Below, piece after piece: positions 20,317 to 39,156 of a DNA stretch of 39,393 nt (positions are counted from its first letter, which is position 1; every line of letters starts with the position of its first letter). This DNA is from Bacteroidota bacterium (GTDB lineage: Bacteria > Bacteroidota > Bacteroidia > Bacteroidales > Prolixibacteraceae): the NCBI GenBank assembly GCA_030698405.1, contig JAUYMU010000023.1, forward strand, positions 1 to 39,393, read 5' to 3'. Below the pieces are notes generated by a model, which saw only the letters and a program-made list of their open reading frames with translations, did no database searches and was not told where the DNA came from. Both the position numbers and the translations under genes were made by a program.

Positions 20317-20412
20317 CATTAAACAGCAAAATTGATACACAAAACAGTAGTTAAAGAAAAATAGAATTAACAGAGTAAAAGCAATTAAACAATCATTTAA
20401 AAAGTAACAATC

Positions 20413-20712: not shown

Positions 20713-20763
20713 TAAAAAATCAAAAAATTTCAAATAGAATTATAACAATTAAAAACAAAGATT

Positions 20764-21063: not shown

Positions 21064-21102
21064 GCCTCGATCAATTAATGTTTAACAATTAAAACAAAAG
21101 TC

Positions 21103-21759: not shown

Positions 21760-21795
21760 ATTCAATTATTAACAAACAATTAAAAAACAGTGATC

Positions 21796-22934: not shown

Positions 22935-25900
22935 ATGACTGATCAAAAAAAAGCCAAAGAAGAACTCATCAATGAGTTACAGGAATTACAGCAAGCTCCC
23001 AATTCCTTAGCTGAACGTTTAACTCAAAAAATGCTTAATAAAAAGAGCCATTTCGTCATCTTGGGATTAATTATTTCGGTCCTGTTAATTTTAGGCGGGT
23101 ATTTTTATTACAGCCATTCTTACAGGCAGTTACGTACTGAAAAGGAAAATGATCTAAAAGCAATCGCGGAATTAAAAATTGACCAGCTCGTTCAGTGGAA
23201 CAAAGAACGAACGGCCAATGCAAAAGTAATTTCATTGTCGCCACTTTTTAGTAATGGAGTCGAAAAATGGCTTCTGGATAAAAGGAACAAGAAAAATGAA
23301 CTGAACATTAAGGAACGCCTTTCATTAGCGCAAAAAGAATATGGTTACGAGTCAATTATTCTCGCTTCAACAAAAGGCGATATTTTGCTTTCTATAGGTT
23401 TAAAATCAGAAATATTTGATGATATCACAACAGAAAAAATTATAGAATCAGCAAGGAAAGACCAGATCACTTTTACCGATTTCTACTCCTGCAATAAACA
23501 CAATAAAATTCATTACGATATTATTGCCCCCATTAAAAACGAACGCAACATCATCATTGCTAACTTATTATTCCGTATTGAGCCTTCGAAATATCTTTAT
23601 CCTTTAATACAAAAATGGCCTACACCGAGCAAAACGGCAGAAACATTGTTGTTTAAGAAAGATGGCGACAGCGTTTTATACCTGAACGAATTGAGGCATC
23701 AAGAAAATACTGCATTAAAACTAAGGTTCCCGTTAACCAGAAAAGATTTACCGGCTGTTCAGGCAGTTTTAGGCAAGACCGGTTTCTTTTATGGAAAAGA
23801 TTACCGTGGCGCTGATGTCCTGGCTTATTTAAGCCCGGTTCCCGGAACGGATTGGTATATGAGTTCTAAGATTGACAGCAGCGAAATTCTCTCGGAATTA
23901 AAATTCAGAGGTATTGCAGTTGCTCTTTTTGTTATGATGCTCTTGATAGCTTTAAGCATAGGGATAGCCTGGATTTATCAATACAGCCAAAAAAATATTT
24001 ACCAAAATTTGTGGCAGGTTCAGGAAGAATTCCAAGCTACACTTTACAGCATAGGCGATGCGGTTATTTCAACCGACAAAAAAGAGAAAATAAAATATCT
24101 TAATCCTGTAGCCGAACAGTTAACCGGATGGAAAATGGCCGAAGCTATTGGGGAAAAATTAGAAAAAGTCTTCAGGATTATTAACGAGGAAACCAGAAAT
24201 ACTGGTGAAAACCCGGTTGAAAGAGTATTAAGGGAAGGTGTTATAGTAGGGCTCGCAAACCATACACTTCTTATTGCTAAGGATGGAACTGAAAGACCAA
24301 TAGCCGACAGCGGCGCACCGATCAAAGATGAAGAGGGTGAAATTATTGGCGTTGTCCTTGTTTTCAGGGACCAGACAGAGGAACGGTTACAGCAAAATTT
24401 GCTAAATGCACGTTTATCGTTATTTGAATTCGCTGCATCGCATACACTAAACGAAATCCTCACAAAAACTTTAGATGAAGTTGAAGTATTAACAAACAGC
24501 AAAATCGGTTTTTATCATTTTATCCTGCCCGATCAGGAAACGCTTCATTTACAGGCATGGTCAACCAGAACAGAAAAAGAATATTGCAAAGCAGTTGGGA
24601 AAGGACTTCATTATAAATTGAGTGAAGCGGGTGTTTGGACCGATTGCGTTCATCAAAAGAAACCAGTCATTCATAACGATTACGCATCGCTGCCACACAA
24701 AAAAGGAATGCCTGAAGGTCACTCCCTTCTCACACGCGAACTTGTTGTCCCTATTATACGAAACGATCAAATTGTTGCCGTGCTTGGCGTAGGCAATAAG
24801 CCGGGCGATTACACGGATAAGGATGTTGAGGCAGTTGCTTTTATAGCAGATGTAGCCTGGGAAATCGCACAGAAAAAAATAAAAGAAGAAGAGATTTATC
24901 GCTTAACCCAACTTTATGCAATGCTAAGCCAAACCAACCAGGCGATTGTCCGGATGAAAGGAAAAGAGGAACTGTTCAGAGAAGTTTGCCGGGTTGCCAA
25001 AAACTTTGGCGAATTTCAATTAGCCTGGATTGGTCAATACAACTCAGAAAAAAATCAGGTTGAACCTTTTGCCTGGGAGGGGGAAGAAAATGGATTTATC
25101 CAAAATGAACTGAATGACGCACCCGAAGAGATGCGTAATCTGATGCCATGTTTTCGGGCTTACAATGAAAACCGCATTGTTGTTGCAAATGATGTTGCCG
25201 TTGACCCCAATTGTGATTACTACCGTGAAGCGGCCCTCAAACGCAACTTCAAATCTTTAGCCGCAACCCCAATACATTTACTTAATCATGTCATTGGAGT
25301 ATTTGTGCTCTATTCTTCAGAAGCCAATTTCTTTGGTGAAAAAGAAGTTAAATTGCTCGAAGAAGTTGGAATAGACATTTCATTCGCATTAGACACCTAC
25401 GACAAAGAAGGGAAACGCCTGATCGCGGATGAATTATTAATGAAGAGTGAAAGACAGTTAATAGAAAGTGAAGAAAAATTCCGCAATTTATTTGAAAACC
25501 ATTCTGCCGTTAAACTTCTAATTGACCCTGAAAACCAAAACATTGTAGAGGCAAATAAAGCCGCTGCCTTGTTTTACGGCTGGCCTGTTGAAGAACTTGA
25601 AAGAATGAAAATTTCACAATTAAATGTTCTTTCTCCCGATGAAATTAGAAGAGAAATGGAAAAGGCCCTGAATCGGCAACGGATTTCCTTTGAATTTAAG
25701 CACCGAAAGGCGAACGGCTCAATCATCGATGTTGAAATCTATACCAGTCCCATAAACATTGGGGAGAAAGTTTACCTGCATTCAATTATTCACGACATTA
25801 CAGAAAAGAAACTAACGGAGAAGGAGTTACAGAAGCGTTCATTAGCAGTTGAGCAAAGCCCTGTTTCGGTTGTTATTACTAATCTGACGGGAAATATAGA

Positions 25901-27359
25901 ATATGTGAATACGAAATTCTGTACGATTACAGGCTATTTAAAAGAAGATGTTATCGGTAAAAATCCGCGTATCTTAAAATCTGGACATCAGGATGATAGG
26001 ATCTATAAAGAACTGTGGAATACTATCTTATCGGGCAAAAAATGGAAAGGTGAATTGCAGAATAAAAAGAAAAACGGGGAGGTGTATTGGGAATCGGCAT
26101 TAATTTCGCCGCTCTTCAATGAAGATAGAGCTATAACCCATTTTTTAGCAGTCAAAGAAGATATTACCGAGCGTAAAAATATGCTGTCCGAATTAATTAC
26201 AGCCAAAGACCACGCCCAGGAAAGCGACCGGTTGAAATCAGCATTTTTAGCCAACATGAGCCACGAAATCCGCACGCCAATGAATGGCATCCTCGGTTTT
26301 TCCGAATTACTGAAAGAACCCGGCTTGTCAAACGAACAGCAGCAAGAGTATATTCGTATCATCGAAAAAAGCGGCGCCCGGATGCTCAATATCATCAACG
26401 ATATTGTCGATATTTCGAAAATTGAATCCGGACTGATGAAACTTGATTTGAAGCAATCGGATATAAATGAGCAAATCCAATACATTTATACCTTTCTCAA
26501 GCCCGAAGCGGAAGCCAAAGGAATTCAGCTTTCTTATAAAAACTTCTTACCAGCAAAAGAAGCCATCATTAAAACAGACCGCGAGAAAGTTTATGCCATA
26601 CTTACCAATCTGGTAAAGAATGCCATTAAATACACCGATAAAGGTTCGATAGAATTTGGGTATGACCGTGTAGAAACGTTGCATGCAACGTCTCTACGGT
26701 TCTACGTGAAAGACACCGGTATTGGGATTCCCCAAAACCGGCAGGAAGCTATTTTCGAACGTTTTATTCAGGCCGATGTTGTTGATAACCAGGCACGACA
26801 AGGAGCTGGTTTGGGTCTGGCAATTACCAAATCGTATGTTGAAATGCTGGGCGGCCGAATTTGGATCGAAAGCGAACAGGGAATTGGTTCAACCTTTTAT
26901 TTCACTTTGCCTTATCTCCCTGAAGCAGAAGAAAAAATAATTGTTGAAAATATGGTTTCGGCTGGGGTTGAAGAAAACCACGTGAATAAGCTGAAAATAT
27001 TAATTGTGGAAGATGATGAATCGTCCCGAAAATTCATTTCAATTGGTATTCAGGAATTTGGAAAGGAAATTATCAATGTACAAACCGGAACCGAAGCAGT
27101 TGAAACGTGCCGCATTCATCCGGATATTGAGCTGATTCTGATGGATATTCAGTTGCCAGAAATAGATGGATATGAGGCTACCCGACAAATCCGAAAATTC
27201 AACAGCAAGGCGATTATTATTGCCCAAACAGCTTATGCACTTGAAGGCGACAGGGAAAAGGCAGTTGAAGCCGGTTGCAACGATTATATGTCGAAACCGA
27301 TTAAGAGAGATCAGTTAACAACGCTGATAAAGAAATATTTCAATAAAACGAAAGTATAA
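22935..27359 (+). CDS. Hybrid histidine kinase with Cache-like sensor, PAS and GAF domains
   Basis: This 1474-residue protein runs: transmembrane helix (39-58), periplasmic sensor region of Cache type (60-325), second helix (326-348), PAS (360-480), GAF (493-650), GAF (655-822), PAS (840-958), PAS (965-1085), HisKA with phospho-His1110 in NMSHEIRTPMNG, HATPase (about 1210-1330, with NLVKNAIKYT, DTGIGIP and GAGLGLAI), and a C-terminal receiver with Asp1404 in LMDIQLPEIDG. It has no DNA-binding output, so it must signal to another protein. The AraC-type gene eight bases downstream is the natural candidate but has no receiver. A palindromic repeat lies inside the HATPase domain, encoding residues 1245-1255. 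Confidence 0.93.
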   Translation: MTDQKKAKEELINELQELQQAPNSLAERLTQKMLNKKSHFVILGLIISVLLILGGYFYYSHSYRQLRTEKENDLKAIAELKIDQLVQWNKERTANAKVISLSPLFSNGVEKWLLDKRNKKNELNIKERLSLAQKEYGYESIILASTKGDILLSIGLKSEIFDDITTEKIIESARKDQITFTDFYSCNKHNKIHYDIIAPIKNERNIIIANLLFRIEPSKYLYPLIQKWPTPSKTAETLLFKKDGDSVLYLNELRHQENTALKLRFPLTRKDLPAVQAVLGKTGFFYGKDYRGADVLAYLSPVPGTDWYMSSKIDSSEILSELKFRGIAVALFVMMLLIALSIGIAWIYQYSQKNIYQNLWQVQEEFQATLYSIGDAVISTDKKEKIKYLNPVAEQLTGWKMAEAIGEKLEKVFRIINEETRNTGENPVERVLREGVIVGLANHTLLIAKDGTERPIADSGAPIKDEEGEIIGVVLVFRDQTEERLQQNLLNARLSLFEFAASHTLNEILTKTLDEVEVLTNSKIGFYHFILPDQETLHLQAWSTRTEKEYCKAVGKGLHYKLSEAGVWTDCVHQKKPVIHNDYASLPHKKGMPEGHSLLTRELVVPIIRNDQIVAVLGVGNKPGDYTDKDVEAVAFIADVAWEIAQKKIKEEEIYRLTQLYAMLSQTNQAIVRMKGKEELFREVCRVAKNFGEFQLAWIGQYNSEKNQVEPFAWEGEENGFIQNELNDAPEEMRNLMPCFRAYNENRIVVANDVAVDPNCDYYREAALKRNFKSLAATPIHLLNHVIGVFVLYSSEANFFGEKEVKLLEEVGIDISFALDTYDKEGKRLIADELLMKSERQLIESEEKFRNLFENHSAVKLLIDPENQNIVEANKAAALFYGWPVEELERMKISQLNVLSPDEIRREMEKALNRQRISFEFKHRKANGSIIDVEIYTSPINIGEKVYLHSIIHDITEKKLTEKELQKRSLAVEQSPVSVVITNLTGNIEYVNTKFCTITGYLKEDVIGKNPRILKSGHQDDRIYKELWNTILSGKKWKGELQNKKKNGEVYWESALISPLFNEDRAITHFLAVKEDITERKNMLSELITAKDHAQESDRLKSAFLANMSHEIRTPMNGILGFSELLKEPGLSNEQQQEYIRIIEKSGARMLNIINDIVDISKIESGLMKLDLKQSDINEQIQYIYTFLKPEAEAKGIQLSYKNFLPAKEAIIKTDREKVYAILTNLVKNAIKYTDKGSIEFGYDRVETLHATSLRFYVKDTGIGIPQNRQEAIFERFIQADVVDNQARQGAGLGLAITKSYVEMLGGRIWIESEQGIGSTFYFTLPYLPEAEEKIIVENMVSAGVEENHVNKLKILIVEDDESSRKFISIGIQEFGKEIINVQTGTEAVETCRIHPDIELILMDIQLPEIDGYEATRQIRKFNSKAIIIAQTAYALEGDREKAVEAGCNDYMSKPIKRDQLTTLIKKYFNKTKV
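26665..26700. repeat. Palindromic repeat inserted in frame in the kinase gene
   Basis: ACCGTGTAGAAACGTTGC (26665-26682) is followed by its near-perfect reverse complement ATGCAACGTCTCTACGGT. The core ACGTTGCATGCAACGT is a perfect palindrome. It encodes RVETLHATSLR, in the loop between the strand IEFGY and the strand FYVKD of the ATPase domain, where related kinases have a shorter, variable turn. Confidence 0.75.
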
Positions 27360-27367: not shown

Positions 27368-27961
27368 ATGGACTCACAAAACAGCGATGTCAGCCAGCGG
27401 ATTTTTATCCGGAACATGATGTGTTCCTGTAGTAAACGTATGGTGAAAGAGGAACTTACAAAACTAGGCATAACTGTACTTGATGTTAAACTGGGAGAAG
27501 CTAACATTGTTTACGATCCTGAAAAAATAAGCAGAAGCCAGATCGACAATATGTTGCAGGATTTGGGGATGGGACTGATTAGCGATAAAGACGAGATATT
27601 GGTTGAACAAATCAAACAAACAATCATCGAACTGGTACACTACATGAATAATGTGGATTCCATTGTCCGGAAATCGGAATACCTGGTCGAGAAAATGGGT
27701 AAAAGTTACCAGACTTTATCCAAACTGTTTTCAAAAGTTGAGCCCATTACCCTCGAAAAATACATCATCCTCCAAAAAATTGAGCGCGTTAAAGAACTGG
27801 CCATGGAAGACAAAATCTCGTTGAGCGAAATTGCATGGATGATGGATTACAGCAGTCCTCACCACCTTTCCAATCAATTCAAGATTATTACCGGTATTTC
27901 GCTGTCCGACTTTAAAAAAGACCCTGCCGCTTACAAAAAACCAATCAATAATTTGTATTGA
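27368..27961 (+). CDS. AraC-type regulator with HMA-like N-terminal domain
   Basis: This 197-residue protein joins an N-terminal domain of about 70 residues, resembling a heavy-metal-associated ferredoxin-like fold (FIRNMMCSCSKRMVKEELTKLG, then VKLGEANIVYD), to an AraC-type HTH domain (TLSKLFSKVEPITLEKYI, LSEIAWMMDYSSPHHLSNQF, TGISLSDFKK). Relatives of this layout are widespread in Bacteroidota, often near metal-transport genes. Here the expected CxxC reads CSC, so metal binding would be altered. It starts eight bases after the hybrid kinase and lies just upstream of the first copy of a four-copy operator. I infer, without proof, that it binds that operator. Confidence 0.85.
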   Translation: MDSQNSDVSQRIFIRNMMCSCSKRMVKEELTKLGITVLDVKLGEANIVYDPEKISRSQIDNMLQDLGMGLISDKDEILVEQIKQTIIELVHYMNNVDSIVRKSEYLVEKMGKSYQTLSKLFSKVEPITLEKYIILQKIERVKELAMEDKISLSEIAWMMDYSSPHHLSNQFKIITGISLSDFKKDPAAYKKPINNLY

Positions 27962-27978
27962 GCCTCGAACTATACCTT

Positions 27979-28038
27979 ATTATATAAATCTTTTACCAAA
28001 TTGTGTAATATCTGCCCTTTTTGTATGGAGTATTTTTG
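27979..28038 (+). promoter_or_regulatory. Operator-promoter module, copy A (TonB receptor operon)
   Basis: The operator at 27979-28008 contains TTTTACCAAATTGTGTAA, and TATTTTTG (28031-28038) matches the -7 consensus exactly. Operator start to -7 is 52 bases, identical to copies C and D. CATA follows 3 bases after the -7. The leader to the ATG at 28158 is about 110 bases. Confidence 0.85.
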
Positions 28039-28157
28039 CTCCATAAAGCTTCATCGGTTACGATTATCCGAAAACAATCAGATCATCCTCGCGATTTATC
28101 CATTTAGCTTTCAATTCTAATATTTATAGTTAATATAACTTATTCACCTGGCAAAAA

Positions 28158-30887
28158 ATGATACAACTCGTAAAAAGAATTGCTCTTACAGGCCTGATTA
28201 TTTATATGTTCCAATCACTCGGGTTCACCCAGGCGCCGGAAAAAATTATAATCGACAAACAGTACTACGGAACATTGGACCAGGTACTTGACCGGATTTC
28301 CCTTGATAAAGGGATTTTGTTTTCGTACAACAAACGAAAGCTTTCGCAAATACAGTTGGATGATAACACTTTAAACCAACCTCTGGATAAATTATTGGAC
28401 AAGTGGTGTTTGAAATCAAAAATGGAATGGTACCGGAATACCGACGGCATCGTAAATATTGTAGGACTGAACAGAACTCCCGGATCAGCCGCTGCAAAAG
28501 CGGAAGCCGTAAAAACTTATTCAGGAGCGCCAAAAACATTCAATATCCTGATCAGTGGGAAGATCGTTGATTTGGAAACCGGAGAGGCTGTGCCTTATGC
28601 TTCGGTAGTTATAGCCGGAACCACCAGAGGAACACAAACCAATCAGGACGGGTATTACACCCTGCAAAATGTGCCAACTGATACTTCAACCGTTTTAGTC
28701 TCATCTATTGGGTACAAAACCGGGCTCATTTTCCTGACACCGGATTTACCAAAAACCAAAATGGTTGTTCAGATCGAACCTTCTACTATTGAGATGGATG
28801 AAGTTGAGGTGAAAGCTCAAAGGAACACCGTGATGAGTACCAACGATAAAATCAGCACCATACAAATTACTCCACGAAAACTGGCTGAACTGCCGAACAT
28901 TGGCGAAAAGGATATTTTGCGGGTATTTCAGCTCATGCCCGGTGTTTCGGCTGCGAACGAAGGAACATCAGGCTTGTTCGTTCGTGGTGGAACTCCCGAT
29001 CAAAACCTGATTTTGTATGATGGATTTACCGTTTATCACGTCGATCATTTATATGGTTTCTTTTCAGCTTTCAACTCGAATGCGGTAAAAGATGTTCAGT
29101 TGTATAAAGGCGGTTTCGAGTCAAAGTATGCAGGCCGCCTTTCAAGTGTTACCGACATCACCGGAAAGGATGGCAATTCAAAAGATTTCAATATTGGTGG
29201 CGATTTGAGCCTGCTTAGCGCCAATGTATATGCCGAATTACCAATTGGCGATAAATTCACATCCTTGTTTGCTTTCCGGAAATCGTACAAAGGCCCCATT
29301 TACAACAAGATATTCGACCAGTTTAACACCAAAAGCGAAGTGGCATTACCACAAACCACCGGCAGAGGATTAAAATCGGGCAATAATTTTGCCACAGAAG
29401 TATCATCGTATTTTTACGATTTAAATACGAAATTAACTTACCGGCCAACCGACAAAGATGTTGTTTCGTTCAGTCTGTTTAACGGAACCGACAATCTCGA
29501 CAACAGCGTTAAAATTGATGTACCAGCTTCAGGAGGTGGAATGGGCAGGTCAATGGGCTCCGACAACAGCGACCTTACCGAATACGGAAATCTGGGAACC
29601 AGCCTTAAATGGTCAAGAAGATGGAATGAAAAACTTTACGGCAATTCTCTGATCAGTTTTTCGAACTATTACAGTAACCGCGACCGGAGCAGCAACCGGA
29701 CTACCACTGATGCCGATGGAGTTGAGACAATTGTTAAAATCGGGACGCTCGAAAATAACGACCTGAAAGATTTTAGCTTTCGTTCGGATTATACCTTTGA
29801 TGTTTCGTCGAAAAGTCAGATTGGCTTTGGATTAAAAGCTACGAATTACAACATTGACTATACTTACAGCCAGAATGACACTTCTACCATTCTGAATATC
29901 GCGAATAAAGGAAACTTAGTGGGAGGCTATCTTCAAAACAAATTCAAATTTCTGGATAATAAACTGACCATAACCCCCGGAGTTCACACAACCTTTTACG
30001 ATGTTACCAAAAAGTTCTACGCAGAGCCGAGGCTTTCGGCAACTTATGGCATTAACGATAAAATAAAACTGATTGGAGCCTGGGGAACCTATTATCAGTT
30101 TGCCAACCGCATAACGCGTGAAGATATTCTGGCAGGCAGCAGCGATTTCTGGATTCTGTCGGACGATGTAAAAGTACCGGTGAGCAAAGCCATCCATTAC
30201 ATAACAGGTATCAACTACGAAACCCCTGATTATCTTTTCAGTGTTGAGGCTTATTACAAGCAGCTTACAGGCCTTTCTGAATATTCCTTACGCTTCGAAC
30301 CCGCCAGAAGAATGCAGACCATCAATTACGAACAGAATTTTTTTACCGGAAATGGTTTTGCCAGAGGCATCGAATTTCTGGCCCAGAAAAAATTTGGAAA
30401 CCTGACAGGCTGGGTATCCTACACGCTGGCACAGGCACGAAATCAGTTTGATGTTTATGGTCAGGATTATTTTCCTGCCGCTCAGGATGTGACCAACGAA
30501 TTCAAAGCAATCGGAATCTACAAATGGAGAAAATGGAGCCTGGCAGCCACCTGGATTTATGCTACCGGCCGGCCATATACTGCTCCTGAAGGTGGGTATA
30601 ACATCACGCTATTGGATGGAACAGAGAAATCATTTATTACCGCCGGAACAAAAAACAGCCGACGCCTACCCGATTATCACCGGCTCGACTTCGCGGTTAA
30701 TTACCTCCTGAAATCGGTTGATCAGAAAACTGAAAGAGGCAATATCAGCTTCTCACTGTTCAATGTTTACGACCGCAAAAATACCTGGTACAAGGAATAT
30801 CAAATCCTTGACAGTGAAATCATTTCGATTGACAAACAATTCTTAGGCATTACTCCGAACGTAACCGTTACCTTAAAACTTAAATAA
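28158..30887 (+). CDS. TonB-dependent outer-membrane receptor with STN domain
   Basis: This 909-residue protein has, in order: a signal peptide (ending GFTQA), an STN domain (about 30-95, YGTLDQVLDRISLDKGILF), a carboxypeptidase-regulatory-like beta-sandwich (about 128-215, ISGKIVDLETGEAVPYASV), a plug domain (about 225-330, LMPGVSAANEGTSGLFVRGG) and a beta-barrel reaching the C-terminus (NVTVTLKLK, an outer-membrane end signature). It should import a ligand powered by TonB. STN domains usually relay ligand signals to a FecR-type anti-sigma factor, but no FecR-like gene is visible here. The gene after it encodes a DUF4249 lipoprotein, its usual partner. Confidence 0.93.
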   Translation: MIQLVKRIALTGLIIYMFQSLGFTQAPEKIIIDKQYYGTLDQVLDRISLDKGILFSYNKRKLSQIQLDDNTLNQPLDKLLDKWCLKSKMEWYRNTDGIVNIVGLNRTPGSAAAKAEAVKTYSGAPKTFNILISGKIVDLETGEAVPYASVVIAGTTRGTQTNQDGYYTLQNVPTDTSTVLVSSIGYKTGLIFLTPDLPKTKMVVQIEPSTIEMDEVEVKAQRNTVMSTNDKISTIQITPRKLAELPNIGEKDILRVFQLMPGVSAANEGTSGLFVRGGTPDQNLILYDGFTVYHVDHLYGFFSAFNSNAVKDVQLYKGGFESKYAGRLSSVTDITGKDGNSKDFNIGGDLSLLSANVYAELPIGDKFTSLFAFRKSYKGPIYNKIFDQFNTKSEVALPQTTGRGLKSGNNFATEVSSYFYDLNTKLTYRPTDKDVVSFSLFNGTDNLDNSVKIDVPASGGGMGRSMGSDNSDLTEYGNLGTSLKWSRRWNEKLYGNSLISFSNYYSNRDRSSNRTTTDADGVETIVKIGTLENNDLKDFSFRSDYTFDVSSKSQIGFGLKATNYNIDYTYSQNDTSTILNIANKGNLVGGYLQNKFKFLDNKLTITPGVHTTFYDVTKKFYAEPRLSATYGINDKIKLIGAWGTYYQFANRITREDILAGSSDFWILSDDVKVPVSKAIHYITGINYETPDYLFSVEAYYKQLTGLSEYSLRFEPARRMQTINYEQNFFTGNGFARGIEFLAQKKFGNLTGWVSYTLAQARNQFDVYGQDYFPAAQDVTNEFKAIGIYKWRKWSLAATWIYATGRPYTAPEGGYNITLLDGTEKSFITAGTKNSRRLPDYHRLDFAVNYLLKSVDQKTERGNISFSLFNVYDRKNTWYKEYQILDSEIISIDKQFLGITPNVTVTLKLK

Positions 30888-30888
30888 G

Positions 30889-31755
30889 ATGAACAAATCT
30901 ATATTTTTCAATCGCTCAGTAAAAATGAAGCAACAAGTACAAACGGGTTTAATTGGATTGATCTTCGGAATTAGCTTCATGCTCACTTTAAATTCGTGCG
31001 AAACAGAAGAGGCCCAACTGGCCTTCAACGATATTCCGGTTGTCGAATCGTATCTGATACAGACCAAGCCTGTTTCAGTAAAAATAACCCGTAAAACTCC
31101 TTACGACTACAATGTAGCCCTATCCGATGAAAATCTGGATTTGCTTCAGGTAAAAATCCTGTACGACGATCAAATAAGATTGATTCCTTCAGTTGGCAGC
31201 GGTGAATATAAAGATGCCACTTTCTTCCCTCGGGAAGGGATAACTTACAAGCTTGAATTCGTATTCAACAATGAAACAGTGTCCTCATCAACCGAAATTC
31301 TTTCAAAACCTGTTAATTACAAACAGTCGGTTTCCCAAATAAATATGGGGAGTATCGATTTCAGCACCAGGCCACCCACCCGGCCTGTAATGCCAGATCC
31401 GGTGAAACTTAGCTGGACAAACGACGACAATAGCTATTACATGGTTGTTATCGAAAATATGGAAACCACTCCAATCGCAATCAACGATTACGGAGACAAA
31501 CAAGCTCCCGGTCGGTTTTTTCGTAACGCGCCAACGCAAACAAATCAGTACGAAATACAGTCCATGCGTTTTCAATATTACGGAAGGCACCGTTTGATAC
31601 TTTACCATTTAAATGCCGATTATGCTGCGTTGTACAACGACACCGGAAACAGCTCTCAGAATCTGACCAATCCGACTACCAACATCGAAAATGGTTTGGG
31701 AATTTTCACCGGAATTAATGCCGATACGCTTTTCCTGAATGTAATTAGGCCATGA
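30889..31755 (+). CDS. DUF4249 lipoprotein, partner of the TonB receptor
   Basis: This 288-residue lipoprotein has its lipobox in MLTLNSC after an extended N-terminus; an internal ATG at 30925 gives a more compact signal peptide. It shows the DUF4249 opening: a conserved VVESYL followed by KPVSVKITRKTPYD and later beta-rich segments. DUF4249 proteins are encoded directly after TonB receptors in Bacteroidota and probably act as surface or periplasmic accessories to them. It begins one base after the receptor stop codon, so the pair is co-translated. Confidence 0.85.
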   Translation: MNKSIFFNRSVKMKQQVQTGLIGLIFGISFMLTLNSCETEEAQLAFNDIPVVESYLIQTKPVSVKITRKTPYDYNVALSDENLDLLQVKILYDDQIRLIPSVGSGEYKDATFFPREGITYKLEFVFNNETVSSSTEILSKPVNYKQSVSQINMGSIDFSTRPPTRPVMPDPVKLSWTNDDNSYYMVVIENMETTPIAINDYGDKQAPGRFFRNAPTQTNQYEIQSMRFQYYGRHRLILYHLNADYAALYNDTGNSSQNLTNPTTNIENGLGIFTGINADTLFLNVIRP

Positions 31756-31769
31756 TAAAATACTATCTT

Positions 31770-31827
31770 ATTTTGTAAGTCATTTACAAAAATTTGTGCT
31801 ATGTTCGTTCGGGTTGTAATTTTTTTA
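31770..31827 (+). promoter_or_regulatory. Operator-promoter module, copy B (LamG gene)
   Basis: The operator at 31770-31799 contains ATTTTGTAAGTCATTTACAA, closely matching copies C and D over the first 20 bases, but its second half (AAATTTGTGC) is diverged. The region aligned to the -7 is T-rich (31820-31827) and two bases closer than in the other copies. CATA follows at 31831. This is the weakest of the four. Confidence 0.65.
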
Positions 31828-31848
31828 CATCATACAAAATAAAAAAAA

Positions 31849-34800
31849 ATGAAAAAAAACCTGGTTACACTTGCAATCTTATTGCTCACTTGTTATATCG
31901 GCGTTTCGCAAAGTATTTCGGGAGTTTACAATACCGACTTCAAAGAAATGACCATTACTCAGAATGGGAACAAGGTAACCGGAACATATAAGCACCAAAA
32001 CGGACGTATTGACGGAACATTGAACGGCCACACTTTAACAGGCTTTTGGTTCCAGGATAATGGCAAAGGAAAGTTAGTTTTTGAGTTTAATTCCGATTTT
32101 TCAGGATATACAGGTAAATGGGGTTACAATGATGCTGCGCCTGCAAGTAAATGGAACGGAACAAGAATAGCTGCGGCATCTCAGCAGAGTATACCTGTAG
32201 AAATAATTCCTTCAGCAACAAAAACAACATTTTCAAAGAACGCGATTGAGAACGGACTTGTTTCCTGGTACCAATTCGACGGAGATTTTAATGACTATTC
32301 CAGCAATAGTTACCATGCAACAAATGTTGGTGCTTCATGGACTGAGAACAGGCTTGGCGAGGCCAATAAAGCGCTCTCATTTGACGGCAACAGTTCAGGA
32401 GTAAGACTTGACAAAGGATTTCCAAATGTATTTAACGGAAGTCTAACTGTGTCAATGTGGGTCTATTTTAAGGATGACACCAGATCTGTTTTATTTGGCA
32501 GCTACAACACAGCTAATAATGTGGTTTTTGAAAAACACACCAATAACAGGTTAAGAATATGGTGGAATAACGGTCAAATAGATTTTTTCTCTCCGGACAA
32601 TGTTGTTACAACAAACAAATGGTTTTTTGTAACTTTTGTAAGAGATAAAGGACAAAATAAATTCATTATTTATGTAAACGACAAGGAAGTTGCCAGCACG
32701 TCCGGCATCGGTACAGATGTGACACCGGCAGGTCCTTTCTATATCGGCAGAGATTCCAGAACCGGAACTACAGTAACTAATGGAATGATTGATGATGTTA
32801 AGATTTATAACAGGGCAATAACAACCCCAAAAACAGAAAGTGTGTCAGCTCCAAATGTATTTCCTGATGCACCCTCGGCTCCATCAGCAAAATTGAGTGT
32901 CAACTTGAATAATACTGATGCTGTGGCGGGTAACTTAAACCAACATGCAATTCAGCTAAACGTATTGAAGGGAACGTTCGATCAAGAAGTTAAACTGGAG
33001 GTTAAAGAAAATAGTAGTGTTCCTCAATTCGACAAGAATAGAGCAACTCTTATTGGCGCGCCTTTCGAAATTACGATTGACCAAAAATCAAAAAGGCTTA
33101 ATAAACCAGTTCAGGTGAAAGTAAAACTTGAACAAGCGGAGATAGCGGCATTAAACCACCCCGGAGACTTGTGGATCGGTTATTTTAACGGGAAAGGCTG
33201 GGATTATTTCAAGCCACTCGAAGTAAATCTGAATGAAAAGTATGTAAAGTTTGAGACTTACCACTTCAGTGATTATGCAAAAGCCCAACTCACGAAGGGT
33301 GAGATAATCAATGATTTTGCATACAAAAACGCGGTTAGTCAATGGGTTGAAAACGACAACAATGCGTTGACCAAACAAGCCACCGAACAGATGGTGAGTG
33401 AAATTTTAAGTAAAAAGATGGGGCTGAATAATAAGTCGCTGGCGCAGGATGTTGTTGAAGCCATGATGCAGGAGAATGATTACACAACGCTTCTTGTGAA
33501 TTACAACGACGGAAATATGGAGGATTTCAGCCAGAATGTAGCCGTTTTAGCCGGAAAAAAAATATGCGACATCGTTACCAGCGACAGTAATGCAAAAGGT
33601 TTGTTGGGGATGGTGACAGAAAACAGTTCGAAGGTTGGGGCTGCGGTTAAGGTGGCTGTTGCACTTTCGGAAGGTGATGGAGAAGCGGCTGCTAAAGAAT
33701 TATCGATGGAAATATTGAATTCGTTTCCGCTAACAAAATTGCTCACTACAACTGCCCGGCTGACTGAAATGCAAATTAACAGATGGAAGAATCAGGAGCT
33801 CGAAGCAGCTTATCAGGCTTTTGTAAATGGCGCTGACAGCAGTCGCCCTTGGGGATTTCAGGTTGAGAAGGGAAATTTCGAAGAGTTGTGGAGCCAGTTG
33901 CGAGGACTTGAACCAAAGATTTACGGCGATGTCATCGATAATTATGCAGCTTTAAAAGGAATGAAAACCAGCGAATTGAATTCGGTTGTCTTAGATAAAA
34001 TACGGAGAGATGCCAAAGAAAATATGCGACTGGAGTTTGAGAAAAGGAAAAATCAGGAATCAAAAATTGAAACGATAAAAGCTGAAAACATCAAACTTAT
34101 CAGCGAATTCGAAAGAGCAAATCTTTTATCGCGCAACCGGTTTGGGTTTACAGATGCCACCGATTTTGATTTTCGAATCGAACGGTTGTTCCGAATCAAA
34201 GATATGATACTGAAGGATACCAAAAGTCGCCTGGGATTTACCGGTGTTGATGATGGTGGTATTATCTCTGCACAGACCATTGCTGCTCTAACGCAAATAT
34301 GGTACTCGGACAATGGCAAGGAAAAATATCGTCAGGAATTAATTCGTTTGGGATACAACAAGGAAGATAAGAAGCCAGTTTTTGCCGAAGCAAAAATTCA
34401 GCAACCGGTTTCAGGCTCAAATCTGGATGGGGTATGGGTTGGCACATTAACTCATTCCAACTTGCAAGATTACTGGGATCAACCCAGATTTGAATGGATT
34501 GATGGTGTTACAGAAAGACCACTGCTTTTTATAGTGTATGATGCAGGGGAGACATCAAAACCTGAATACCGTGTTTTATCTCTGGATGTTTTCAGTGTTT
34601 CGGTTGGATTTCTACAAGTGCCAACAACTAAAATAATCTCCGGATTTAATAATGGCAGTTTTTCATTTCGTGAAAAAATTCAAGGTAGGGATGGGGATAC
34701 TGATCTAAATGCTTTCCACGTTTATAAGGCGACAAAGCTTAAAACTCCTGTTAGCCCCGCTACATTTCCCGCCACAGTGAACATTTCAACTCTGAAGAGC

Positions 34801-35073
34801 AAATCAGACAACTACATAGAAGAAAAGGGAACGAAAGATGACATAGATAACGAAGGTACTATTCAGGCGATGAAAGACGCGGCCGGAGTTAAAATTCAGG
34901 AGGCTAAGGAATTTTACAACAAAACCCCTGTTTTTCAGCGGGCAGCAGAAATCTGGCTAAAGGAACGAAAATTCAAAATAGATGGTACCAACAGCGAAAG
35001 TAATGTTAATTCTGATCGTTTAGCCTTCGAAAAATTGTATAAAGATTTACTTAAAACGCCAGCCAATAAATAG
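31849..35073 (+). CDS. Large secreted LamG-domain protein
   Basis: This 1074-residue protein has a signal peptide (LLTCYIGVSQ) and several regions. Residues 22-105 form a small beta domain with TITQNGNKVTGTYKHQNG and TLTGFWFQDNG. Residues 135-325 are a LamG/concanavalin-like jelly roll (LVSWYQFDGDFNDYSSN, SLTVSMWVYFKD, GMIDDVKIYNRAI). About 345-480 is a beta-sandwich of ZU5-like appearance ending in TYHFSDYAKA. About 480-870 is a long helical region with many Lys/Glu, and about 875-980 is a beta domain that opens LDGVWVGTLTHS. The helical middle and C-terminus match no family I know. LamG domains bind glycans or proteins at the surface. A shared operator ties its expression to the TonB receptor and to the PqqD-like operon. 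Confidence 0.8.
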   Translation: MKKNLVTLAILLLTCYIGVSQSISGVYNTDFKEMTITQNGNKVTGTYKHQNGRIDGTLNGHTLTGFWFQDNGKGKLVFEFNSDFSGYTGKWGYNDAAPASKWNGTRIAAASQQSIPVEIIPSATKTTFSKNAIENGLVSWYQFDGDFNDYSSNSYHATNVGASWTENRLGEANKALSFDGNSSGVRLDKGFPNVFNGSLTVSMWVYFKDDTRSVLFGSYNTANNVVFEKHTNNRLRIWWNNGQIDFFSPDNVVTTNKWFFVTFVRDKGQNKFIIYVNDKEVASTSGIGTDVTPAGPFYIGRDSRTGTTVTNGMIDDVKIYNRAITTPKTESVSAPNVFPDAPSAPSAKLSVNLNNTDAVAGNLNQHAIQLNVLKGTFDQEVKLEVKENSSVPQFDKNRATLIGAPFEITIDQKSKRLNKPVQVKVKLEQAEIAALNHPGDLWIGYFNGKGWDYFKPLEVNLNEKYVKFETYHFSDYAKAQLTKGEIINDFAYKNAVSQWVENDNNALTKQATEQMVSEILSKKMGLNNKSLAQDVVEAMMQENDYTTLLVNYNDGNMEDFSQNVAVLAGKKICDIVTSDSNAKGLLGMVTENSSKVGAAVKVAVALSEGDGEAAAKELSMEILNSFPLTKLLTTTARLTEMQINRWKNQELEAAYQAFVNGADSSRPWGFQVEKGNFEELWSQLRGLEPKIYGDVIDNYAALKGMKTSELNSVVLDKIRRDAKENMRLEFEKRKNQESKIETIKAENIKLISEFERANLLSRNRFGFTDATDFDFRIERLFRIKDMILKDTKSRLGFTGVDDGGIISAQTIAALTQIWYSDNGKEKYRQELIRLGYNKEDKKPVFAEAKIQQPVSGSNLDGVWVGTLTHSNLQDYWDQPRFEWIDGVTERPLLFIVYDAGETSKPEYRVLSLDVFSVSVGFLQVPTTKIISGFNNGSFSFREKIQGRDGDTDLNAFHVYKATKLKTPVSPATFPATVNISTLKSKSDNYIEEKGTKDDIDNEGTIQAMKDAAGVKIQEAKEFYNKTPVFQRAAEIWLKERKFKIDGTNSESNVNSDRLAFEKLYKDLLKTPANK

Positions 35074-35125
35074 CGAAATCAGAAATAATAAATCATCTAA
35101 ACTGCCGGCAACTATTTTCATCACA

Positions 35126-35524
35126 TTGCTGGGTTTTTCCTTTATCATCTGGGGGCTTACTATAATTACATTGGGTTTTATCGGGGATAAAGGAACGGCA
35201 GTGATCACCGATATCCGGCGTGAAGGTGGAGAACGGAATGAAGTTAAACGCGGCAGATATACTTATAATATTAGCTACACATTTACACTACCCAATGGTA
35301 AAAGTGTGAACGGATTCACCAGAAGAATTGGCAGTGCAGTCTTTCTGAAAGCGGATGGAAAATCAAAAGCGGCGGTTAAATACTTCACATTCTTCCCTTA
35401 CATCAATGCCCTGGAACAGGATACAAAACCGGGGTTCGGGCAATTAATACTTTTCGCGGCAGGATGTTTCCTGATTTTTTTAATGAACAGGCGCAAAAAG
35501 GAAGTGGCAAAAAAAACATTGTAG
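35126..35524 (+). CDS. Small DUF3592-like membrane protein with unusual start
   Basis: The 132-residue frame from TTG at 35126 has a transmembrane helix at each end (LGFSFIIWGLTIITLGFI and GQLILFAAGCFLIFLMN). Between them is a beta domain with the DUF3592 pattern (GTAVITDIRRE, YNISYTFTLPNGKSVNG, VKYFTFFPYINAL). The frame stays open upstream with protein-like sequence (NNKSSKLPATIFIT), but the only stop-free extension has no ATG or GTG; an ATA at 35066 overlaps the end of the LamG gene. The true start may therefore be a rare codon, or an ATG has been lost. Function unknown; the gene is co-oriented with the LamG gene. Confidence 0.6.
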   Translation: MLGFSFIIWGLTIITLGFIGDKGTAVITDIRREGGERNEVKRGRYTYNISYTFTLPNGKSVNGFTRRIGSAVFLKADGKSKAAVKYFTFFPYINALEQDTKPGFGQLILFAAGCFLIFLMNRRKKEVAKKTL

Positions 35525-35600
35525 CTGTGAGTTTCCAACAATCAGTTTGTCAGATCACAAAATTTGTTCTTGAATACATAAAATGAGGGCTTTATACCGT

Positions 35601-35660
35601 ATTTTATAAATCATTTACTAAATTCTGTAATAACCGCCTTTGTTGTTTCAGGTATCTTTG
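35601..35660 (+). promoter_or_regulatory. Operator-promoter module, copy C (DUF2202 gene)
   Basis: The operator at 35601-35630 begins ATTTTATAAATCATTTACTA and ends AATTCTGTAA. TATCTTTG (35653-35660) is a perfect -7 match at the same 52-base distance as in copies A and D, followed by three bases and CATA. The ATG is at 35692. Confidence 0.85.
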
Positions 35661-35691
35661 TTTCATAAAATAGCAATTTAAAACAAGAGTC

Positions 35692-36339
35692 ATGAAAACA
35701 ACAGTATTATTAGTAGCAATTGCAGTGAGCCTGGCCTTTACGAGTTGCCAGAAAGATGAAGAAGTAACATCAAATCTCAGCGTTACTTCACAGATTGAAG
35801 CGTTCCCGGTAGAAGCATTAAATGCGGATGAATTAAACAGCCTTCAGTGGATGAGGGAAGAAGAAAAATTGGCCAAAGATGTTTACACCACCTTGTATGC
35901 AAAATGGAATGTAAGTGTTTTTATAAATATTTCATCCAGCGAGCAGCAGCATACCGATGCGGTTTTGACATTGATCAACAAGTATGATTTGTCCGACCCG
36001 GTTGGCAGTAATGTAGTTGGAGTATTCTCTAACCCTGAGTTGCAGAGTTTATACAATCAGTTGGTGGCTCAAGGAAATCTTTCGGTTCTTGATGCATACA
36101 AAGTTGGTGCAACCATTGAAGATCTGGATATTTTCGATTTGAAAGAGGCAATATCAAAATCAGATAATCAGGACATCATATACGTTTATGAGTTACTTTC
36201 GATGGGAAGCAGAAACCACATGCGTGCGTTTTATGGACAAATTATTAGTTTGGGAGGCACTTATTCCGCCCAGTTTATTTCACAGGCCGAGTTAGATGCC
36301 ATCGTTACCAGTGCGAGGGAAAAGGGAAGTTCATGGTAA
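35692..36339 (+). CDS. DUF2202 ferritin-like lipoprotein, copy 2
   Basis: This 215-residue lipoprotein (lipobox LAFTSC) has a DUF2202 domain from about residue 50: LQWMREEEKLAKDVYTTLY, SSSEQQHTDAVLTL (ExxH) and LLSMGSRNHMRAF. It is clearly homologous to the 21103-21759 protein, with the same motif order and spacing. Placement of the Glu and His residues on helices suggests a di-metal centre, but the activity of the family is unknown. It has its own copy of the four-copy operator and lies just upstream of the operator of the PqqD-like operon. Confidence 0.88.
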   Translation: MKTTVLLVAIAVSLAFTSCQKDEEVTSNLSVTSQIEAFPVEALNADELNSLQWMREEEKLAKDVYTTLYAKWNVSVFINISSSEQQHTDAVLTLINKYDLSDPVGSNVVGVFSNPELQSLYNQLVAQGNLSVLDAYKVGATIEDLDIFDLKEAISKSDNQDIIYVYELLSMGSRNHMRAFYGQIISLGGTYSAQFISQAELDAIVTSAREKGSSW

Positions 36340-36387
36340 ACGTGGCATTCATGCACATAAATATTCAATAGGAGTGTTTTCTACCTT

Positions 36388-36447
36388 ATTTTGTATATCA
36401 TTTACAAAATTGTGTAACAACTTCATTTGTGGATTGTAGTACTTTTG
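36388..36447 (+). promoter_or_regulatory. Operator-promoter module, copy D (PqqD/ATP-grasp operon)
   Basis: The operator at 36388-36417 begins ATTTTGTATATCATTTACAA and ends AATTGTGTAA. TACTTTTG (36440-36447) is a perfect -7 match 52 bases from the operator start, then three bases and CATA. The PqqD-like ATG is at 36470. Confidence 0.85.
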
Positions 36448-36469: not shown

Positions 36470-36733
36470 ATGAAAATAACAGACGAAGTAAGAATTAGCG
36501 ACAACGGATTTGTTTTCAATTCAAAGACCGGCGATTCGTTTAACGTAAACCCAACCGGGCTGGAACTCACCAAGCTGATTGCCCAGGGACAAGATTTTGA
36601 CACGATCAAAAACATGTTTCTTGAGAAATATGAATTGGATGATCTGACCTTTGAAAAAGACTTTTATGAGTTTTGCGCGTTGATCAAATTTCATCAGATT
36701 ACCACCACCGAAGATCCACTCGATTTTAAATAA
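36470..36733 (+). CDS. PqqD-like peptide-recognition protein
   Basis: This 87-residue protein fits the PqqD/RiPP-recognition-element fold: an N-terminal beta-hairpin (NGFVFNSKTGDSFNVNPTGLE, quoted in part: FVFNSKTGDSFNVNPTG) followed by three helices (LIAQGQDFDTIKNMFLEKYE, then FEKDFYEFCALIKF). PqqD domains bind the leader of a precursor peptide and present it to a modifying enzyme. It is the first gene of a three-gene operon, 10 bases before an ATP-grasp gene. No obvious precursor peptide lies next to it. It may bind a peptide encoded elsewhere, or work as a carrier-like chaperone for the two enzymes. Confidence 0.82.
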   Translation: MKITDEVRISDNGFVFNSKTGDSFNVNPTGLELTKLIAQGQDFDTIKNMFLEKYELDDLTFEKDFYEFCALIKFHQITTTEDPLDFK

Positions 36734-36743: not shown

Positions 36744-37790
36744 ATGTCAAAAACAAAAATTACAATAGCTGTAACCGGGCTGAATAATACCGATAATCCC
36801 GGGCCGGGCGTACCGGTAATCCGATCGCTAAAAGACTCGGAAGAATTTGATATCCGGATTATAGGGCTGGTTTACGAAACGCTCGAACCGGGAATATACA
36901 TGGAGGGCTTGTGCGATAAAATATTTCAGATTCCTTATCCATCAACCGGATCCGACGAATTGATAGATCGCATCGAGGAAATACACCGGCGTGATCCAAT
37001 TGATGTGTTGATCCCCAATTTCGACGCTGAACTGTTTTCGTTTATGAAAAATGAAGAACGTCTTTTACGGAGCGGAATCCATACTTTTTTACCAACGATC
37101 AAACAGTTTCAGGAACGCGACAAAGACAAACTTCCAGAGTATGGCGAAAAATATGGCATCAGTGTCCCGGCGAGTTTAAACCTGGGCAGCCAGAACCAGA
37201 TTTCGGAGATCAAGGATAAATTTAAGTATCCGGTGATGGTTAAGGGAAAGTTCTACGATGCTTACATGGCTTACAACTCGGAGCAAGTCAAACAGGCTTT
37301 TAACAAGATTTCGTCGAAATGGGGCTTGCCGGTAATTATTCAGGAATTTGTGAAAGGCACCGAAGTCAACGTTATCGCTTTGGGCGACGGGCAGGGAAAC
37401 ACCATTGCAGCCGTTCCGATGCGGAAACAATACATCACCGACAAAGGGAAAGCCTGGGGCGGAATCACATTGTCGGACGATAAAATGCTCGAAATTACCC
37501 GGAACCTTATCCGTCAAACCAAATGGAAAGGCGGAATGGAGCTCGAACTGATAAAAACTGTAAAAGGCGAATATTACCTCATCGAAATCAATCCGCGTAT
37601 TCCGGCATGGGTTTACCTCGCCGTTGGCGCCGGGCAAAACATTCCTGAAGCTTTGGTAAAACTGGCTTTGGGGCAGGAAGTCGCGCCAATGGAATCGTAT
37701 GCTTTCGGAAAAATGTTTGTGCGTTACTCGTACGACATTATTGTTGACCTGGAGAAATTTGAAACAATAGCAATGAACGGAGAAATTTAA
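36744..37790 (+). CDS. ATP-grasp ligase (carbamoyl-phosphate-synthase-like)
   Basis: This 348-residue protein has an N-terminal Rossmann-like pre-ATP-grasp domain (ITIAVTGLNNTDNPGPGVP, DVLIPNFDAELFSF) and an ATP-grasp domain with the nucleotide-binding Lys in YPVMVKGKFYDAY, the hinge strand VIIQEFVKGTEVNV and metal-binding Glu/Asn in YYLIEINPRIPAW. ATP-grasp enzymes join a carboxylate, through an acyl-phosphate, to an amine or thiol. Between a PqqD-like gene and a PLP decarboxylase gene (13-base gap), a role in ligating an amino acid or peptide is likely; the exact substrate is unknown. Confidence 0.88.
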   Translation: MSKTKITIAVTGLNNTDNPGPGVPVIRSLKDSEEFDIRIIGLVYETLEPGIYMEGLCDKIFQIPYPSTGSDELIDRIEEIHRRDPIDVLIPNFDAELFSFMKNEERLLRSGIHTFLPTIKQFQERDKDKLPEYGEKYGISVPASLNLGSQNQISEIKDKFKYPVMVKGKFYDAYMAYNSEQVKQAFNKISSKWGLPVIIQEFVKGTEVNVIALGDGQGNTIAAVPMRKQYITDKGKAWGGITLSDDKMLEITRNLIRQTKWKGGMELELIKTVKGEYYLIEINPRIPAWVYLAVGAGQNIPEALVKLALGQEVAPMESYAFGKMFVRYSYDIIVDLEKFETIAMNGEI

Positions 37791-37803: not shown

Positions 37804-39156
37804 ATGGAAAAACTAAAATACGATAAACCGACAATCAGTAAGATTAATGCAGGAATGCCCAGTAAATTCGGATTACCTGTAAAACAAAAAGTAATAGCAG
37901 ACATTGATGGGATTAAAGTTTCTTCGCTGATTGAAGAATACGGATCGCCACTATTTGTTATTTCAGAAAAAACCATGCGTGAAGTACATGCCGAGGCAAA
38001 ACGGGCCTTCGAAACCCGCTACCCCAAAGTTCAGTTTGCATGGTCGTACAAAACCAATTATCTGGATGCCGTTTGCAGCATTTATCACGACGAAGGTTCG
38101 TGGGCCGAAGTAGTTTCAGGTTTCGAATTCGAAAAAGCGCTCTCGAATGGCGTACACGGTTCGCAAATTTTGTTTAACGGGCCAGACAAATCGAAAGCTG
38201 ATTTAACTTTGGCCATCGAAAACAATGCCTGCATCCACGTCGACCATTTCGACGAGCTCTATTTGCTGATTGAAACCAGTCGCGAATTAAAGATGAAAGC
38301 CAGGGTGGCCATTCGTGTAAACATGGATGCGGGGATTTATCCGATCTGGGACCGATTTGGTTTTAATTACGAAAACGGCGATGCCTGGAATGCCATCAAC
38401 CGCATTATGCTGGCCGAAAGCCTCGAAATGATCGGTTTGCATACCCACATTGGAACCTACATTATGGTACAGTCTGCCTATGCCATTGCTGCGGCCAAAC
38501 TAGCCAACCTTTACATGGCAATTCACCGGAAATTCGACCACTGGTTAAAATACATCGACATGGGTGGTGGTTTTGCCTCAAAGAATACGCTCAAAGGCGC
38601 GTACATGCCAGGCAACGAAACCTGTCCGTCGTTCGACGAATATGCCGAAGCCATTTCAAACGCATTGATTTCTTCTGAAATCCCTCACGAAAACTTGCCG
38701 GTACTGTTTCTTGAAACCGGACGCGCTTTAATTGACGATGCTGGCTATTTGCTCACCACGGTTATTGCAAACAAACGGTTGAACAGCGGAAGGCGTTCGA
38801 TGGTTATCGATGCAGGTGTCAATCTGTTATTCACCTCGTTCTGGTATAATTTGGGGGTTTATCCAACACGGGAATTGGGAAATGCTGAGGAATCAACCAT
38901 TTACGGTCCATTGTGTATGAATATCGATGTCGTCCGCGATGCCATTGTTTTTCCACAGGTAAAAACTGGCGAACAATTGGTGATCGAACGGGTTGGCGCT
39001 TACAACATCACACAATCGATGCAGTTTATTACCTACCGGCCAAACGTGGTTTTGATCGACAACGACGGCAAAACACATATTATCCGAAAAAAAGAAGGAC
39101 TGGAAACATTCAAAAACAGCGAGTTAAATCCGAAGAGGAATTATCAAAAACCCTAA
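37804..39156 (+). CDS. PLP-dependent decarboxylase of the diaminopimelate/ornithine decarboxylase fold III type
   Basis: This 450-residue fold-type III enzyme has the PLP Schiff-base Lys83 in FAWSYKTNYL. Further matches are GSWAEVVSGFEFEKAL, HTHIGTYIM, the phosphate-binding DMGGGFAS, FLETGRALIDDAGYL, and active-site Cys371 in YGPLCMNID. It resembles LysA (meso-diaminopimelate decarboxylase), but a stand-alone lysine-biosynthesis role is unlikely given its operon with PqqD-like and ATP-grasp genes. I infer decarboxylation of an amino acid, or of the C-terminal residue of a conjugate made by the ligase. The reading frame is intact and no further co-oriented gene is certain in the window. Confidence 0.88.
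   Translation: MEKLKYDKPTISKINAGMPSKFGLPVKQKVIADIDGIKVSSLIEEYGSPLFVISEKTMREVHAEAKRAFETRYPKVQFAWSYKTNYLDAVCSIYHDEGSWAEVVSGFEFEKALSNGVHGSQILFNGPDKSKADLTLAIENNACIHVDHFDELYLLIETSRELKMKARVAIRVNMDAGIYPIWDRFGFNYENGDAWNAINRIMLAESLEMIGLHTHIGTYIMVQSAYAIAAAKLANLYMAIHRKFDHWLKYIDMGGGFASKNTLKGAYMPGNETCPSFDEYAEAISNALISSEIPHENLPVLFLETGRALIDDAGYLLTTVIANKRLNSGRRSMVIDAGVNLLFTSFWYNLGVYPTRELGNAEESTIYGPLCMNIDVVRDAIVFPQVKTGEQLVIERVGAYNITQSMQFITYRPNVVLIDNDGKTHIIRKKEGLETFKNSELNPKRNYQKP

Follow-up and report, generated by a model that had tools for sequence, protein, structure and literature searches.

Four promoters in a Prolixibacteraceae bacterium of the Bacteroidota are each preceded by a copy of the same operator, built from two ~15-bp units in tandem at a 21-bp step. 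The stretch of DNA that carries them, called the window here, is 39,393 nucleotides long (GenBank assembly GCA_030698405.1, contig JAUYMU010000023.1). Each operator is likely the site of a single factor that activates all four promoters, and this factor would most plausibly be the HMA-AraC protein encoded 5' of the first copy, in which an HMA-like domain is joined to an AraC-type DNA-binding domain. The regulator gene, the operators and the -7 elements lie as follows.

27368-27961, + strand: HMA-AraC regulator gene (N-terminal HMA-like domain, C-terminal AraC-type DNA-binding domain)
27973-28010, + strand: operator A, with tandem units at 27973-27987 and 27994-28008 (21-bp step)
28031-28038, + strand: -7 element TATTTTTG of promoter A, 52 bases from the block start
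31764-31801, + strand: operator B, with a diverged proximal unit (profile E 2.1e-11)
31817-31824, + strand: possible -7 element TAATTTTT of promoter B, a sequence reading, five bases closer than the -7 elements of the other three copies
35595-35632, + strand: operator C
35653-35660, + strand: -7 element TATCTTTG of promoter C
36382-36419, + strand: operator D, the top profile match of the genus (E 3.7e-19)
36440-36447, + strand: -7 element TACTTTTG of promoter D

A preliminary description of the window had recognized a 30-base block at 27979, 31770, 35601 and 36388, and the block is present at all four places. As it also stated, the distance from the block start to the start of TAnnTTTG is exactly 52 bases in copies A, C and D, where three bases and CATA follow the element, and copy B has diverged, with no exact -7 element and an altered proximal unit. 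The -7 element of copy B could be TAATTTTT, at 47 bases, or an A/T run in register; in the tree, copy B pairs with the module from genome G014 (L126), in which TATATTTG stands at 48. What the description missed was a TACC six bases 5' of the block (TATC in copy B), together with the direct repeat at 21 bp to which this TACC belongs.

The consensus of the Bacteroidota housekeeping promoter combines a -7 TAnnTTTG with a -33 TTTG. A matrix made from the four window copies finds 24 modules with a score of at least 20 in 17 loci (the site in G403, locus L128, fell below this threshold with a score of 16 and was dropped). In these modules TAnnTTTG begins at 52 bases in 16, at 51 in 5 and at 48 in 1, and is lacking in 2, so that the phasing claimed for the window extends to relatives, with 21 of the 24 at 51 or 52 bases. 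A -33 element, sought as TTTG or TTG 17-23 bp 5' of the -7 element, occurs in 0/24. With the -7 element in most of them and the -33 element in none, the modules read as a putative activator-dependent form of the Bacteroidota housekeeping promoter. A TTTG does stand 10 bp 5' of the -7 element in 11/24 of these near modules and 7-8 bp 5' of it in 5 (in the window at 28017-28023, 35638-35642 and 36426-36429 and equivalents), which is not the -33 distance.

The module is confined to these four places in its own genome. A degenerate pattern written from the four copies and allowing three or fewer mismatches hits exactly these four places, whether the window or all 5,486,406 bases of the genome are scanned; their recovery is by construction, and the informative part is that nothing else was found. 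The pattern has no match on the reverse strand, nor was one found with the backward control or in 100 shuffled versions of the window. A 75-bp profile built from the 24 related modules, for which 150 of 6137 first-look candidates in the source genome were scored, returns the same four copies at E 3.7e-19 to 2.1e-11, and the next match there, at E=0.027, falls at copy D but on the other strand. The many random copies by which a plain repeat would have betrayed itself are thus missing from the genome scan, and in the source genome the predicted regulon consists of four promoters clustered at one locus.

The conserved element is the unit TACnnnATTnTRTAA, which occurs twice in tandem. In the logo of the 24 modules, TACCnnATTnTRTAAATCATTTACnnAATTnTGTAAYA, positions 1-3 (TAC), 7-9 (ATT), 11 and 13-15 recur 21 bases further on. 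The preliminary description had stressed dyad symmetry, and its two overlapping inverted repeats are both present in the block, because the unit itself is partly self-complementary (TAC...GTA). The palindromes are real, but the core kept across the order is the direct repeat, with inverted pairing surviving in a minority. As the conserved core the dyad was demoted to a less likely candidate, since distant loci keep the direct 21-bp pair more often (39 versus 18 of 115).

The 21-bp step is also seen when no motif is supplied. When 64 different regions upstream of the PqqD gene, none of them from the genus or its closest relatives, were compared with themselves at shifts from 8 to 45, 16 of them reached a match of 12/16 or better at shift 21, and no other shift had more than 7 such regions; the mean best match is 10.39, versus 8.94 +/- 0.15 in 200 shuffles. 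A second upstream set (n=52, none in the first) has 12 at shift 21 and four or fewer at other shifts. A test with the unit ATTNYRTAM used 115 distinct upstreams of the same operon, leaving out the genus and nearest loci. Exact pairs at 21 bp occur in 23 and at other shifts from 14 to 30 at most once; when up to one mismatch is allowed the pair is found in 39, with at most 3 at other shifts in this range and at most 8 (shift 33) over all direct shifts from 9 to 35 other than 21. Twenty rounds of shuffling gave 0 or 1. The promoter keeps its register as well: of 51 distant upstreams with a unit pair at up to two mismatches, 19 have an exact TAnnTTTG at 31 bp from the proximal unit (ATT start to -7 start), as in the window, and it also stands at 30 once and at 44 twice. 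Everted pairs peak at shift 18 (12/115), perhaps because ATTTTATAA is nearly self-complementary.

Within the genus the module is found with both the regulator gene and one of the proposed target operons, which begins with a PqqD-like gene and includes an ATP-grasp ligase gene. An HMA-AraC orthologue (83-100% identity) occurs in 11 of 23 genus genomes and the ATP-grasp gene in the same 11, a coincidence with a probability of 7e-7 if the two were independent, a figure that is only a guide given shared descent and linkage. All 22 profile matches at E<=3.5e-9 fall within these 11 regulon genomes, and the best match in the other 12 has E=5e-4; only the absences are informative here, the profile having been built from those 22 sites and two from outside the genus. 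Conservation upstream of orthologues, on which the preliminary description had staked its regulon, is borne out at the PqqD operon, which the module precedes in all 11 genus genomes that have the operon.

The next gene downstream of the 24 modules is the PqqD gene in 13, a TonB receptor gene in 4, a DUF2202 gene in 4 and a LamG gene in 1, with 2 unassigned. Between genomes, modules are 89% identical before DUF2202 (6 pairs), 76% before PqqD (66 pairs) and 70% before the TonB receptor (6 pairs), and modules before different targets inside one genome are 71% identical (14 pairs); G002_x, G014_x and G341 were left out of this comparison. Because modules group by target gene across species, at least the DUF2202 module would have been copied before the species split. 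The ancestral target appears to be the PqqD operon, with the other three promoters looking like later copies of the module.

The HMA-AraC protein has 197 amino acids. Its C-terminal half, a domain of the kind with two helix-turn-helix motifs, belongs to the AraC/XylS family (Pfam HTH_18 8.7e-12, above the cut-off), and the N-terminal half matches Pfam HMA at 3.3e-4, with a score of 21.4 that falls under the gathering cut-off of 24.8. In an AlphaFold model (predicted local distance difference test score, pLDDT, 84.8) a linker helix stands between an HMA-like domain and an AraC-type one. The HMA-like domain follows the beta-alpha-beta-beta-alpha-beta order (strand 8-15, helix 20-32, strands 36-41 and 44-49, helix 56-65, strand 69-71), and the AraC-type half consists of helices in 99-189. 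Fold matches in the PDB are AraC, MarA, AdpA and AraT for one half and CopZ and MerP for the other; residues 8-71, with a predicted ferredoxin-like fold, reach a Foldseek template modelling (TM) score of up to 0.81 over the target. None of the 50 structure matches listed is an HMA-AraC fusion by its title.

The loop that would bind metal as CxxC reads CSCS in the window protein, which is therefore not classed as a metal-binding protein; among orthologues the cysteine loop varies as CSSC, CSCC, CSCS and GYCC. The HMA-like domain may sense a metal or thiol signal. Another HMA-AraC gene (L190, G000:C98) stands beside genes for a metal P-type ATPase, a cation-efflux protein and a DUF302 protein, and this setting of a paralogue suggests a link to metals for the family. 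L190 also has a possible 21-bp repeat (10/16), with TATCTTTG downstream. The flanks of the paralogues in L064, L066, L074 and L080 have GTGTAAC-centred units at 21 bp just 5' of their own gene, which suggests that HMA-AraC paralogues may autoregulate via the same kind of site.

The strongest pointer to the regulator comes from loci where its gene is not next to the operon (it is adjacent in 24/60 named loci). Loci without an adjacent gene comprise 18 with an operator and 34 without, of which 12 and 15 lie in sampled genomes; G414, whose upstream covers only 1.2 kb so that adjacency cannot be told, was added to the test. Genomes of the order with an operator have an HMA-AraC gene of at least 226 bits elsewhere in 11/12 cases, and operator-less genomes in which no adjacent gene was found have one in 1/16 (G158; p 6e-6); without G414 the contrast is 11/12 versus 1/15 (p 1e-5). 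Other HMA-AraC paralogues in the same genomes reach at most 203 bits, except for a second copy in G265 at 240. Operon-bearing loci of Maribellus and Draconibacterium (L201, L203, L204, L209, L216, L217) have no HMA-AraC gene within 1.5 kb upstream, and no operator was recognized in them. A further association is found at paralogues. Among the profile matches listed (E<=0.43), 121 are weak ones outside regulon sites, and 10 of these have one of the genus's 65 other HMA-AraC genes no more than 600 bp away, in all 10 cases on the same strand, where a uniform model expects 0.12. Intergenic bias will reduce this excess, though it should hardly abolish it. On these comparisons the regulator of the four sites is probably the HMA-AraC protein, which appears better supported than the weaker candidate, a Crp-like protein encoded in the window.

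Several observations weigh against assigning the sites to the HMA-AraC protein or against the tandem repeat as their core. Whether the gene is adjacent has only a weak association with the presence of an operator: an operator is recognized in 24/42 loci with an adjacent gene and in 18/52 without one (p 0.038, 21 unknown), and 18 loci have the gene adjacent and no recognizable operator. The 226-bit threshold was fixed after the scores had been seen, and the unit ATTNYRTAM was picked after part of the sequences had been seen. In G113 the HMA-AraC orthologue (G113:C21:8799-9362) has three in-frame stops and the operator is kept; counting this gene as absent gives 10/12 versus 1/16 (p 5e-5). The locus L140 in G255, a genome 97% complete, has an exact unit pair with TAnnTTTG at 31, and despite this operator no HMA-AraC gene was found in G255 at E<=1e-25; a close Crp-like orthologue with 75% identity is present. 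As mismatches are allowed, the contrast at shift 21 fades, from 51/115 upstreams at up to two mismatches (up to 15 at other shifts) to 60 at up to three (up to 47 elsewhere). Inverted unit pairs peak at shift 14, the arrangement of the window palindrome, in 18/115 distant upstreams, and the 24 near modules show 78% agreement between the palindromic arms (11 pairs) versus 60% for the 21-bp repeat (17 pairs). The motif-free shift test on paralogue flanks gives 7/59 at 21 versus 5 for the next best shift, a weak excess, so any family-wide claim rests mainly on the 10 near-gene matches among the 121.

Some of these points would be expected if the site were instead the palindrome of a homodimeric regulator from another family, such as the Crp-like protein (17697-18401) acting on ATTTTGTAAATCATTTACAAAAT, an explanation that appears distinctly unlikely. 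The 23-bp palindrome is real, its inverted pairing recurs at distance as described, and the Crp-like gene lies within the window and has an orthologue in 11/11 regulon genomes of the genus. At 218 bits or more the Crp-like protein is found in 7/12 genomes with the operator, G255 among them, versus 3/16 without (p 0.0497), a weak association, and the predicted Crp regulon of Bacteroides has a 22-bp palindrome (PMC3878776). However, the protein is also present in 10/12 genus genomes that lack the regulon (21/23 overall), close orthologues are absent from 5/12 operator-bearing genomes versus 1/12 for HMA-AraC, and direct pairs outnumber inverted ones in the distant upstreams. A first look for the Crp-like gene found it in 4/35 loci, which says little because whole-genome searches recover the orthologue in 21 of the 23 genus genomes.

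A different alternative keeps both the operator and the HMA-AraC regulator and changes the sign of its action, to that of a repressor or of a switch that is bound without signal and activates with it, as AraC does. The proximal unit covers the -33 place, where an unliganded protein would block polymerase. With no -33 TTTG in any of the 24 modules, however, unaided promoter activity would be weak and repression unnecessary, and this alternative is unlikely. Far more improbable is a plain dispersed repeat, such as a mobile element remnant, or a set of general housekeeping promoter copies without a dedicated regulator. The similarity of the whole ~75-bp module between copies is what duplication would give, but there are exactly four copies in a single orientation at a single locus, for which the plain repeat was rejected; modules also group by target, with DUF2202 modules more alike between genomes than modules of different targets within one, and the presence of the operator tracks the regulator gene.

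Activation by the HMA-AraC protein is thus the preferred reading, and a mechanism can be sketched for it. As a 21-bp step amounts to two helical turns, two HMA-AraC monomers would bind the tandem units from one side of the DNA. Lying 31 bp 5' of TAnnTTTG, the proximal unit would replace the missing -33 element, and the absence of that element with the unit in its place points to class II-type activation. The protein would then recruit RNA polymerase to the promoters of the TonB receptor-DUF4249 genes, the LamG gene, the DUF2202 gene and the PqqD/ATP-grasp/PLP-decarboxylase operon (PLP, pyridoxal phosphate). That HMA-AraC binds the four sites would fit the co-occurrence of gene and operator, and its putative role as an activator is suggested by the position of the site and the lack of a -33 element. 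The proposed target genes are the following.

28158-30887, + strand: target A, carboxypeptidase-regulatory-like domain / TonB-dependent receptor plug protein (Pfam)
30889-31755, + strand: second gene of target A, DUF4249 protein (Pfam 1.6e-9)
31849-35073, + strand: target B, Laminin_G_3 (LamG) protein (Pfam 2.1e-23)
35692-36339, + strand: target C, DUF2202 protein (Pfam 1.4e-57)
36470-36733, + strand: first gene of target D, PqqD-like protein (Pfam PqqD 7.8e-5, at gathering score)
36744-37790, + strand: ATP-grasp ligase of the PqqD operon (Pfam)
37804-39156, + strand: PLP-dependent decarboxylase with a diaminopimelate/ornithine decarboxylase fold (Pfam; NCBIfam FslC-like and LysA-like below cut-off)

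The window is all of contig C47 and ends just past the decarboxylase gene. Among 35 loci compared for gene order, some of which end early, the gene row continues in relatives with a urea-transporter/M23 fusion (27/35), a ~450-amino acid protein without a Pfam match (24/35), a TPR protein (24/35), a protein sorted by the type IX secretion system (15/35) and an acyltransferase (9/35). The fusion, seen at L034:14961-17228 and in homologues, joins a urea-transporter domain to an M23 peptidase. An ATP-grasp match at E<=1e-40 occurs in 154/393 sampled genomes of the order. Named close relatives are metagenome-assembled genomes of the Prolixibacteraceae, and further ones include Ancylomarina and Marinifilum. 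In Marinifilum sp. D737 (L264), a cultivable environmental relative, the regulator gene and the operator are adjacent. In L127 (G097) and L128 (G403), which belong to other families, the ATP-grasp protein is 92% and 90% identical to that of the window. Across four sampled members of the genus of G403 its identity runs 90, 85, 69 and 67%, and given this unevenness horizontal transfer of the operon looks likely. At 17697-22635 the window also encodes the Crp-like protein, an extracytoplasmic function (ECF) sigma factor, a candidate zinc-finger anti-sigma factor, a Metal_resist protein and a second DUF2202 protein, a neighbourhood partly conserved beside HMA-AraC in the genus.

The architecture of the site has precedents. 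Escherichia coli AraC occupies araI1-I2, tandem half-sites at a 21-bp step of which the proximal one overlaps the -35 region; each unit consists of two boxes one turn apart, and the protein senses arabinose through a cupin domain. The system described here shares the tandem 21-bp step, the proximal unit at the promoter and the two-box units, and differs in its HMA-like domain, its TAC/TGTAA unit and its Bacteroidota -7 TAnnTTTG. The HMA metallochaperones CopZ and MerP and the metal domains of copper ATPases resemble residues 8-71 of HMA-AraC in their predicted ferredoxin-like fold, whereas in HMA-AraC this fold is joined to an AraC domain and has a variable CxxC loop, so that metal binding is putative.

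Another precedent comes from Bacteroides, in its hybrid two-component systems (HTCS) of AraC type, whose predicted operators consist of directly repeated units spaced 21 bp apart on average, read as two monomers on one face (PMC3878776). In that account HTCS are built with periplasmic sensor, kinase and receiver domains, and their role is in the use of glycans. HMA-AraC resembles them in its AraC-type DNA-binding domain and its predicted ~21-bp direct-repeat operators; unlike them it has 197 amino acids, consists of HMA-like and AraC domains only and has other targets, and it is not an HTCS. The hybrid kinase at 22935-27359 was considered as an HTCS and set aside, since it ends in a receiver domain and has no AraC domain. 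Neither HMA-AraC regulators nor the PqqD operon appear among the matches listed in the open-access literature, judged by title and start of abstract, and a paper on graspetides treats, in the part available, other ATP-grasp loci (PMC8939145). Relative to the predictions in PMC3878776, the putative HMA-AraC regulator, its operator and its regulon are new; the 21-bp tandem operator architecture of AraC-type regulators in Bacteroides is already known.

A wider proposal is offered tentatively and is somewhat doubtful as a whole: HMA-AraC proteins may be widespread one-component activators of the Bacteroidota that sense metals or thiols with a domain like that of metallochaperones and act on 21-bp tandem operators at a fixed distance from TAnnTTTG. 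An old subfamily would control the PqqD/ATP-grasp/PLP-decarboxylase/UT-M23 operon for a metal-linked small molecule or envelope modification, and the genus would have gained the TonB receptor, DUF2202 and LamG genes as targets by module copying. Growth of a regulon by the copying of a whole operator-promoter module before unrelated genes is suggested by the four promoters of the window. The finding would connect a type of regulator with a precisely defined operator, and also with an operon that occurs in 154/393 sampled genomes of the order. The operator may thereby offer a handle on the signal of the HMA-like domain and, through the co-regulated receptor, on the purpose of the operon.

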